Below the pieces are notes generated by a model, which saw only the letters and a list, made by a program, of their open reading frames with translations, had not been told where the DNA came from and did not search any database. DNA of 57,393 nt from Anaerolineaceae bacterium (lineage in GTDB: Bacteria > Chloroflexota > Anaerolineae > Aggregatilineales > Phototrophicaceae): assembly GCA_007693385.1 (NCBI GenBank), contig REDR01000068.1:1-57393 (forward strand), read 5' to 3'. Made by a program: the position numbers and the translations under genes. Shown piece after piece: positions 29,164 through 35,643 of the stretch. The first letter of the stretch is position 1. Every line of letters starts with the position of its first letter.

Positions 29164-29856
29164 TCACGAATCGCCGTTATCGTGTATGCCGCATTCCGTC
29201 TTGGCCGTGCCCGCCCAGCGCCCGCTACGCAAATCATCGTCCGCCGCCGGACGGGTACACGGCACACAGCCGATGCTCGGATAGCCCGCGTCGTGTAGCG
29301 CGTTATACGGCAGATCGTGGGCGCGGATGTACGTCCACAGCATGTCTTGTGTCCAGCCTGCGAACGGGCAGAATTTGACCATGTTATAGCGGCCATCCCA
29401 GCCGATGACCGGCGTCGTGGCACGGGACGGCGACTGATCGCGGCGCAGGCCGGTCACCCACGCGGAATAAGGCGCTAGCCCGTGCGCTAATGGCTTCGTC
29501 TTGCGGATGTAACAGCATTGATCGGCGTCGGTCAGCCACAGCGCTTCATCGTGCGCGGCGATGTCTTCCGGCTCCGGTTGCAAGCGCTGGATGCTCACAT
29601 CGAATCGCGCCGCCACACGTTCCATCAGCTGGTATGTTTCCGCGAACAATACGCCGGTATCTAGCGTCAACACCTGCAAGGGCGCGTCCGTCATCTCGCG
29701 GAGCATGTGCAGGGTGACGATGCCGGTAATCTGAAAGCTGGTCACAATCGCCAGTTGATCGCGGTATGTCTGATGCGCGTAGCGCAAAATAGCCTGTGGC
29801 GACTCGCCCTCTAGCGTGGCCGCCAAATCTTTGATCTGCTCCGTGTTGATCGACAA
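29164..29856 (-). CDS. cysH: Assimilatory APS/PAPS reductase
   Basis: A 230-residue enzyme that reduces adenylyl sulfate (or PAPS) to sulfite. The two Cys pairs that bind a [4Fe-4S] cluster in the APS type are present: CC in DADQCCYIRK and CVPC in GYPSIGCVPCTRP, with the catalytic C-terminal Cys in ECGIH. The cluster points to APS as substrate. The nucleotide fold is seen in LQVLTLDTGVLFAETYQLM and the arginine loop in VTGLRRDQSPSRA. The start is TTG right after a G-rich Shine-Dalgarno. No sulfurylase or sulfite reductase gene lies in the window. Confidence 0.93.
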   Translation of the reverse strand: MSINTEQIKDLAATLEGESPQAILRYAHQTYRDQLAIVTSFQITGIVTLHMLREMTDAPLQVLTLDTGVLFAETYQLMERVAARFDVSIQRLQPEPEDIAAHDEALWLTDADQCCYIRKTKPLAHGLAPYSAWVTGLRRDQSPSRATTPVIGWDGRYNMVKFCPFAGWTQDMLWTYIRAHDLPYNALHDAGYPSIGCVPCTRPAADDDLRSGRWAGTAKTECGIHDNGDS

Positions 29857-29920: not shown

Positions 29921-31153
29921 TCAACCGTGCAGGAGTTTCTGCACCTTGCGAATCTCGTTGATGACATGCCGGAAGGTATCATCAGGCAAGGCCGGATTGT
30001 AGTGGATGCACGGCACATTCTTCAGGTTGGGCGGCGTGCGCTCCAACGGCTCATAAATCAGCGCGATGATCGGCTTTTCGCGGTTGCGGAAGTGCCCCAG
30101 ATGCGAGCGCACCACATCGCGCTTCAGCGTCTCCGGCGTGACCACGATCAACAGCATCCAGCACGATTGCCGCGCCTGATGGTTCGATGTCAGCCACGGG
30201 TGACTGCCTTCTGACAGATGTTGCTCCGTCCATGTGTTGATCTCCGCACCCATCAGCTTATCGACCAACGGCGCGACCAGTGACCGCCAGTTCGTGCGGT
30301 CATAGGCGATTAACACGCTGTCGCGCAGAACATCCTCATCCATGTCAGTCACCGACGTGACCGGATACGCGAATGTCATCTGTGCTTCATCAATGACCGC
30401 CAACGGCACTTCACGCTCGTCGGTGCTGTGGCGCTTGCTGGGATCATCCACCGCCTGCAATTCGCGGGTGTCGATCAGCAGGTCGGTTGTAGAGCGCCCA
30501 CTGAAACGATGCGGCCTATCGGTCAATTGCATGGTGATCTGGTCACCAATGCGGATGATGTCGCCCATTTTTATCATGTGTTCCTCAGTGACCGGCACAT
30601 CATTGAGCAGTGTCCCGTTGGTGCTGTTCAGGTCGCGGAGGATATAGCCTTTTGGATGCGGCTCTAGCTCCAGATGCTGGCGGCTGACTTCCGGCGCGAT
30701 GATGGTCACGTCGCACATATTACTGCGCCCGACGCTCATCTTGTTGCCGCCCAGCACATACGTCGTCGGCTCTGGTTCTCCGGCCACCGTCACCACCAGA
30801 TGCACCCGCGCTCGCCTGCCCGCTAGCCGCGCCTGCTCGTCCAATTCGCCCGGATAGTATTCCAGCGTGATCGCTTCGCCCAGTTCAATCGTACAACGCG
30901 AACGCAAAAGCCACATGCCGCCACCGTCAACGCGCTTACCGTTGATAAACGTGCCGTTGCTCGATTTCAGGTCACGGAGTTTATAGCCATCGTTCGCCCG
31001 TTGAAACGCAACATGATCGCGGCTGACATCATTATCCTGAATGATAATGTCGTTTTGATTACCGCGTCCTAGCCGGATTTCAGTTTTATGAAATTCGTCG
31101 AAGGGATACACCCGACCCGGCTCGGGGCCCCGCCGCATCACCAGATAAGCCAT
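29921..31153 (-). CDS. Double FHA-domain protein with C-terminal TIR-like domain
   Basis: A 410-residue cytoplasmic protein. FHA domain 1 (about 20-100) has LGRGNQNDIIIQDNDVSRDH and SSNGTFINGKRV. FHA domain 2 (about 125-215) has VGRSNMCDVTII, VSRQHLEL and NSTNGTLLNDVPV. Both keep the Arg, Ser-Arg-x-His and Asn-Gly residues that bind phosphothreonine. The C-terminal 130 residues resemble a TIR domain: SVLIAYDRTNWRSLVAPLVD, a Trp-containing helix, LLIVVTPETLKRD and KPIIALIYEPLE. The glutamate needed for NAD hydrolysis is not evident in the third helix (PWLTSNHQARQSC). It suggests phospho-dependent assembly. The ribosome-binding site is weak. Confidence 0.75.
   Translation of the reverse strand: MAYLVMRRGPEPGRVYPFDEFHKTEIRLGRGNQNDIIIQDNDVSRDHVAFQRANDGYKLRDLKSSNGTFINGKRVDGGGMWLLRSRCTIELGEAITLEYYPGELDEQARLAGRRARVHLVVTVAGEPEPTTYVLGGNKMSVGRSNMCDVTIIAPEVSRQHLELEPHPKGYILRDLNSTNGTLLNDVPVTEEHMIKMGDIIRIGDQITMQLTDRPHRFSGRSTTDLLIDTRELQAVDDPSKRHSTDEREVPLAVIDEAQMTFAYPVTSVTDMDEDVLRDSVLIAYDRTNWRSLVAPLVDKLMGAEINTWTEQHLSEGSHPWLTSNHQARQSCWMLLIVVTPETLKRDVVRSHLGHFRNREKPIIALIYEPLERTPPNLKNVPCIHYNPALPDDTFRHVINEIRKVQKLLHG

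Positions 31154-31692: not shown

Positions 31693-35643
<3,951 letters not shown>

Follow-up and report, generated by a model that had tools for sequence, protein, structure and literature searches.

An FHA-FHA-TIR protein family of Anaerolineae whose TIR domains mostly lack the catalytic glutamate

Gene and domain organization

The window, i.e., the whole analysed stretch of 57,393 nucleotides from contig REDR01000068.1 of an Anaerolineaceae bacterium, carries on its minus strand an intact open reading frame (ORF) of 410 amino acids that occupies exactly positions 29921-31153 and is read from 31153 to 29921. On the plus strand of the same segment the frame is interrupted by stops. The gene, its features and its downstream neighbour are the following:

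29921..31153, minus strand: FHA-FHA-TIR gene, 410 aa plus stop codon (ORF and Pfam)
30875..31129, minus strand: FHA domain 1, approximately residues 9-93, with R30, S44, H47 and N66 present (Pfam, model and family columns)
30521..30814, minus strand: FHA domain 2, approximately residues 114-211, Pfam core 140-203, with R143, S157, H160 and N179, invariant in 54/54 family members (Pfam, model and family columns)
30353..30496, minus strand: linker, approximately residues 220-267, predicted to be disordered, pLDDT <50 (full-length model)
29927..30328, minus strand: TIR domain, approximately residues 276-409 (TIR_2 profile, AlphaFold2 and PDB fold comparison)
30305..30307, minus strand: Ala283, equivalent of AbTIR S140 (alignment and literature passage)
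30161..30199, minus strand: helix B stretch PWLTSNHQARQSC, residues 319-331, with His and Ser at 325 and 330, where the family consensus is Glu
30101..30103, minus strand: His351, at the site of the catalytic Glu of TIR domains (AbTIR E208) (alignments and literature passage)
29164..29856, minus strand: PAPS reductase gene (cysH-like), the next gene downstream, 64 bases past the stop codon (neighbour only)

A reading of this DNA made from the letters alone (the sequence-only reading) had described two intact FHA domains followed by a C-terminal TIR domain, and both assignments are borne out. The FHA profile PF00498 scores 127.5 bits on the protein (cut-off 20.7) over two stretches. The residues by which FHA domains usually contact phosphothreonine are Arg, Ser, His and Asn, and all of them are present in both domains of the window copy. 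The NCBIfam FhaB model scores 98.6, below its cut-off of 125. The TIR_2 profile (PF13676) scores 27.8 bits on the whole protein, just below the cut-off of 28, and 31.0 bits on the TIR segment alone; all 30 aligned members, including the window copy, match it at E <= 0.1. The three motifs that had been quoted for the TIR domain are also present. In a model of the full-length protein the FHA and TIR parts are confident, and the pTM is low (0.43) with a linker of pLDDT <50, so that this model does not give the arrangement of the domains.

The gene is flanked by cysH and by rpoB, the latter recognized by eye on the opposite strand (31693-35643). A scan for promoters and terminators at the locus returned 4 promoter-like sites, where 2.1 were expected, and no terminator. 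The cysH gene was considered as a partner and discarded, since its cluster recurs in fewer than 3 of the 33 loci that the comparison covered, 20 further loci lying outside it.

The TIR fold

The TIR domain of the window protein, modelled by AlphaFold2 with an alignment of 30, is a confident TIR fold (pLDDT 93.4, pTM 0.88), and its comparison with the PDB by VIA-align returned TIR domains, among them those of SPARTA TIR-APAZ (Z 15.9, rmsd 2.4, 127 aligned), RUN1 (Z 15.8), SARM1 (Z 15.0), MyD88 (7beq, Z 14.7), MAL (5uzb, Z 14.4), and AbTIR (Z 14.0). Thus, structure prediction and fold search agree on TIR and do not point to an unrelated fold. A phmmer search of the PDB with the single window TIR gave no match; PDB TIRs were matched by the family profile and by one relative, MyD88 being reached at E 2e-4 in the profile search. 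Five residues of the TIR core (Y284, W289, W308, Q311, and W320) are each invariant in 54/54 members of the family described below. The Box 2 motif (RDxxPG) is not found in the BB loop, where by eye the window protein has TEQHLSEGSHPW and most members have VDQYL.

Loss of the catalytic residues

The sequence-only reading had placed the missing catalytic Glu in the stretch PWLTSNHQARQSC (residues 319-331). As letters this is correct, and the stretch contains no Glu, but in the model it forms helix B, one helix before the catalytic one. The catalytic Glu of bacterial TIR NADases belongs to helix C (WxxxE), which is separated from helix B by one strand, and AbTIR E208 aligns by HMMER with residue 351 when either the family profile or a single relative is used. 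The argument drawn from helix B was therefore wrong; nevertheless, residue 351 of the window protein is His, and the proposal of a TIR that is more likely a scaffold than an NAD-consuming enzyme stands, with support at the level of the family.

Glu occupies column 351 in only 4 of the 54 family members, as compared with 23/23 comparison TIRs, while the motif around this position is retained (e.g., YVRLAYRYF versus YVKMEYRYF). The loss, which the sequence-only reading had suggested checking in the homologues, is extensive (50/54) and leaves no conserved Glu at the site, but it does not reach all members, since L051, L157, L163, and L164, which are scattered on the tree, keep the residue. One member, L182 (G057), aligns poorly at this column, showing His in one alignment and a residue other than Glu in both. 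The comparison set consists of 23 non-member TIRs that were found by the TIR profile in the fetched loci and were not picked for Glu; they derive from 19 of 20 stretches taken from the top of the lower-ranked TIR-profile matches, the twentieth (L182) being a family member and thus not in the set, together with three TIRs located near member genes.

A second active-site residue has also been lost. A literature passage reports that S140 of AbTIR, like its equivalent in TcpC, is needed for NADase activity. The corresponding column 283, in strand A, contains Ser in 2/54 members and in 22/23 comparison TIRs, and the window protein has Ala283. The Ser is missing in all four Glu carriers as well, so that no member (0/54) combines Glu and Ser, versus 22/23 comparison TIRs. 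The family therefore has in common with the catalytic NADases AbTIR, SPARTA TIR-APAZ, and Thoeris ThsB the fold and the order of the elements, but it differs from them by lacking the catalytic Glu (50/54) and the active-site Ser (52/54).

It could be argued that the TIR is still catalytic, either because another acidic residue replaces the lost Glu or because it performs another reaction. D/E310, the equivalent of AbTIR D167, is retained in 53/54 members, helix B bears a conserved Glu at position 330 (52/54) and another at position 325 (39/54), and four members have the C-helix Glu. However, the window copy is the exception that has lost both helix-B Glu residues, the Ser is gone even where the C-helix Glu persists, and in the general TIR topology the end of helix B faces away from the active site. 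We consider this explanation very unlikely.

Distribution and phylogeny of the family

The FHA-FHA-TIR architecture is encoded in 54 of the 98 genomes of the Anaerolineae family to which the window belongs, two of the members (L160 and L166) being cut by a contig start. A search of the 98 genomes gave matches in 33 of them at E <= 1e-40, of which 31 extend to residue 370 or beyond, and the remaining two (G031 and G051) turned out to be full-length on later inspection. The count was raised to 54 by means of a TIR profile applied to 154 genomes of the order, together with the fetched loci. Since the members were recruited with this profile, the presence of a TIR domain in all of them follows from construction, and FHA-FHA proteins without TIR would go uncounted.

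Among 400 genomes of the phylum, in which few candidates per genome were scored, two match the single protein at E <= 1e-30, namely the window's own genome and one of the same family. In another family of the order, the two top-scoring TIR matches come without an FHA part. A search of genome contigs with the single window protein yielded no relative, and the profile yielded 45 loci; in 43 of them the match extends into the TIR part, and the other two, from other phyla, match FHA residues only. With one exception, the relatives are recorded as Anaerolineae, Aggregatilineales, Phototrophicales, and Chloroflexi bacteria. Many of these 43 loci are contigs already present in the family genomes, and they were kept out of the counts. 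Six plasmid records match, none over more than 80% of the query, and the five matches listed cover FHA residues only; a plasmid-borne element was thus dropped as an explanation.

In a tree calculated without column 351, the 54 members form one clade (support 100/99). The TIR branch of the window protein is long (1.33, versus a median of 0.35). Without regain, 11 losses of Glu are required on the best tree, and therefore either Glu has been lost many separate times or some regains have occurred.

These data also bear on the proposal that the FHA part alone matters and that the TIR is a decaying leftover. The long branch, the loss of several family-typical residues in the window TIR, and up to 11 separate Glu losses would fit such a decay. 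Against it, the TIR preserves the five invariant core residues in 54/54 members, these being TIR-bearing by construction, and its predicted fold is confident; we find this proposal quite unlikely.

FHA domains and linker

The Arg, Ser, and Asn residues of FHA2 are intact in 54/54 members. In FHA1 they are intact in 33 of the 52 readable members, with Arg and/or Asn lost in the other 19. The window genome contains 16 Ser/Thr kinase matches and, given these and the intact FHA2 throughout the family, recruitment by Ser/Thr phosphorylation, which the sequence-only reading had suggested, appears to be a fair proposal.

In many relatives the linker ends with a motif like [KR]-x-T-S-x-L-G-T-G-L, which is not present in the window copy. 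At offset -12 of the linker there is Thr in 32/54 members and Thr or Ser in 37/54, the preceding 40 residues containing 11.7% Thr and 7.4% Ser; the rows are related and thus do not amount to 54 independent observations. We infer from these sequences that the Thr-Ser motif is a candidate phosphosite.

FHA regulators of the OdhI/GarA type work as an intramolecular switch. The family resembles OdhI, GarA, and FhaB in having an FHA domain and a Thr-containing segment, but it has two FHA domains, its motif lies between FHA2 and TIR instead of being N-terminal, and its output is a TIR domain. A passage of PMC8546545 describes the phosphorylation of the Thr-containing segment of OdhI/GarA, with its ETTS motif.

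Gene neighbourhood and linkage to a histidine kinase

In 30/54 loci the FHA-FHA-TIR gene is followed on the same strand, within 1300 bases, by a gene encoding a GAF-type histidine kinase, and in 23/54 the distance is within 400 bases; the kinase counts rest on a profile made from the GAF part at the N terminus of the kinase. In the one kinase scanned with Pfam (L063), the domains are GAF, PAS, HisKA, and HATPase, and the alignment reveals that the PAS part is absent from several others. The other 24 loci have no such kinase within 1300 bases downstream, and this absence is real because the downstream sequence available is at least 1800 bases long in every case.

At E <= 1e-30 with the GAF-part profile, this kinase subfamily is found in 35/98 family genomes, all of them carriers of FHA-FHA-TIR. 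They comprise 28 of the 30 adjacent cases, the kinases of G023 and G028 falling short of this threshold, and 7 genomes with the kinase outside the 1300-base range; these 7 belong to the 24 carriers without an adjacent kinase, and their copy of the subfamily lies either farther down the contig or at another place in the genome. At E <= 1e-18, the profile reaches 43/98 genomes, two of which (G044 and G054) are non-carriers. The association between kinase and carriers has a Fisher p of 4e-13, or 5e-5 without genus g22, both values being uncorrected for relatedness. This kinase has no close relative in the window genome, where the best match over the length of the kinase has 25% identity, the GAF-part profile reaches E 5e-11, and no match is obtained at 1e-18.

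Upstream, on the same strand and within 4000 bases, there is a DUF4340 gene in 18/54 loci, and a GldG-like gene in 16/54, while 14 and 11 loci have additional ABC-transporter genes, several loci being cut on this side. In up to 18 relatives, a Gld-type ABC transporter operon (ATPase, permease, GldG-like, DUF4340) is located directly upstream, e.g., L063:2301-6804. None of these family neighbours (kinase, DUF4340, GldG-like, or ABC-transporter genes) is found at the window locus.

Other TIR proteins of the genome and of the order

The window genome has 12 TIR_2 matches, the window protein included. Several of the other TIRs show the Glu by eye and are fused to STAND, NACHT, or WD40 domains, with architectures such as TIR-STAND-WD40 and WD40-Ras-TIR. 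Candidate kinases and TIR partners thus exist in this genome, as judged from its 16 Ser/Thr kinase and 12 TIR_2 matches. Three further loci of the same genome deserve mention on their own. On contig 83, L193:112-3702 encodes EAD8, Ser/Thr kinase, TIR, and NACHT domains in a single chain that runs off the contig end, an architecture of the conflict-system type. On contig 61, L195:2348-3799 encodes a TIR fused to a DarT-like ADP-ribosyltransferase domain. On contig 74, in L201:772-2914, a histidine kinase gene overlaps a small TIR gene that by eye lacks the C-helix Glu, a second pairing of histidine kinase and Glu-less TIR in the window genome.

Among the TIRs fetched from other parts of the order, the closest ones retain both Ser and Glu, and they include REC-GAF-TIR and sheath-TIR proteins. 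The receiver-GAF-TIR architecture is present in L176, L178, L184, L185, and L186, and receiver-TIR in L187, in all cases with a catalytic-type TIR intact; these are response regulators, and they represent two-component signalling with a possible NADase output. The REC-GAF-TIR regulators are similar to the window family in placing a TIR in two-component signalling, and their TIRs are among the closest fetched outside it, but they contain receiver and GAF domains where the family has FHA, and Ser and Glu are intact in 14/14 TIRs of the group.

The coexistence with catalytic TIRs, both in the window genome and among the closest TIRs of the order, would suit a dominant-negative or decoy module, which would co-assemble with the catalytic TIRs of the same cell and hold them off until phosphorylation. 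Nevertheless, REC-GAF-TIR is matched full-length in only 6/98 family genomes and was dropped as a general partner, and what the frequent neighbouring gene encodes is a histidine kinase and no TIR enzyme. This role seems unlikely to us.

Comparison with known systems and proposed function

A known anti-phage defence system was considered and dropped, since the window protein matches 0 families of PADLOC-DB at E <= 0.01; the relative at L063 matches models of the TIR type over part of its length (best E 2e-12, residues 221-344). A combination of FHA and TIR was not found named in the literature, which is weak evidence of absence because subscription papers were mostly outside the search. FHA does not appear in the main text of PMC7075850, according to which the architectures within prokaryotic TIR groups are diverse. 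The passages of PMC7159879 and PMC8195603 deal with systems of multicellular bacteria, Chloroflexi included, for which FHA and TIR are mentioned as alternative effectors, and they do not contain the FHA-TIR combination. As far as the literature searched shows, FHA-FHA-TIR is a new combination of known parts.

The TIR domains of MyD88 and MAL are non-enzymatic. The family is like these proteins, to which the profile and fold matches also point, in joining a Glu-less TIR to a recruitment domain, which is a death domain in MyD88 and FHA here. It is unlike them in being bacterial, in having FHA in place of the death domain, and in having a histidine kinase gene often adjacent, and the structural alignments show 11-18% identity. 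According to passages of PMC8635717, the scaffold TIR assemblies of MAL and MyD88 are parallel and two-stranded, with BE and BCD interfaces, and lead to protein kinase activation. By analogy, we regard these assemblies as the closest working analogue.

Taken together, sequences and models make it reasonably probable that the protein is a phosphothreonine-governed, non-enzymatic TIR adaptor, frequently accompanied by a histidine kinase. Under this adaptor reading, the substrate of a Ser/Thr kinase would be either the linker of the protein itself or a partner protein; FHA2, together with FHA1 where it is intact, would bind the resulting phosphothreonine; this binding would expose or cluster the TIR; and the exposed TIR would bind other TIRs or the histidine kinase, so that two kinds of kinase signalling would be joined. 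The protein would then work in the manner of MyD88/MAL, its FHA domains standing where the death domain would be. The Glu and Ser losses, the single clade, the conserved and folded TIR, FHA2 (54/54), the linker Thr, the kinase linkage, and the 16 Ser/Thr kinases count in favour of the adaptor. Against it count the 24/54 loci without adjacent kinase, the window genome without a close kinase relative, the non-carriers G044 and G054 at E <= 1e-18, the cases of G023 and G028 short of 1e-30, and the FHA1 losses (19/52), as well as the four Glu-keeping members, some of which may be enzymes, although the Ser is missing in them. Since the kinase partner was not found in its own genome, the window copy probably acts for a different client, a TIR or a kinase, and it may be drifting, given its long branch, the lack of the linker motif, and the loss of both helix-B Glu residues.

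A more specific version, which we put forward only tentatively, would make the family the bacterial counterpart of MyD88 within one Chloroflexota family, where a catalytically dead, FHA-gated TIR would physically connect signalling by Ser/Thr kinases with a dedicated histidine kinase of the GAF type, the gating perhaps being exerted in cis by its own linker. Bacterial TIRs have been studied mainly as NAD-consuming immune enzymes, and scaffold TIRs are known mainly from animals. If the proposal is true, a bacterial TIR would act as a plain signalling scaffold, outside NAD+ chemistry. A set of 54 FHA-linked and nearly all Glu-less TIRs with a recurrent neighbour offers a direct route to asking about scaffold TIR signalling in bacteria, and to asking whether Ser/Thr kinases and two-component systems are connected through TIRs. 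A built-in comparison between enzyme and non-enzyme is provided by those related TIRs in which the catalytic residues are retained.

Two relatives (L175:3559-5379 and L179:3053-4900) encode a phage tail sheath protein (PF04984) with a C-terminal TIR that has Ser and Glu. This is an unusual fusion and perhaps represents an effector of a contractile injection system.
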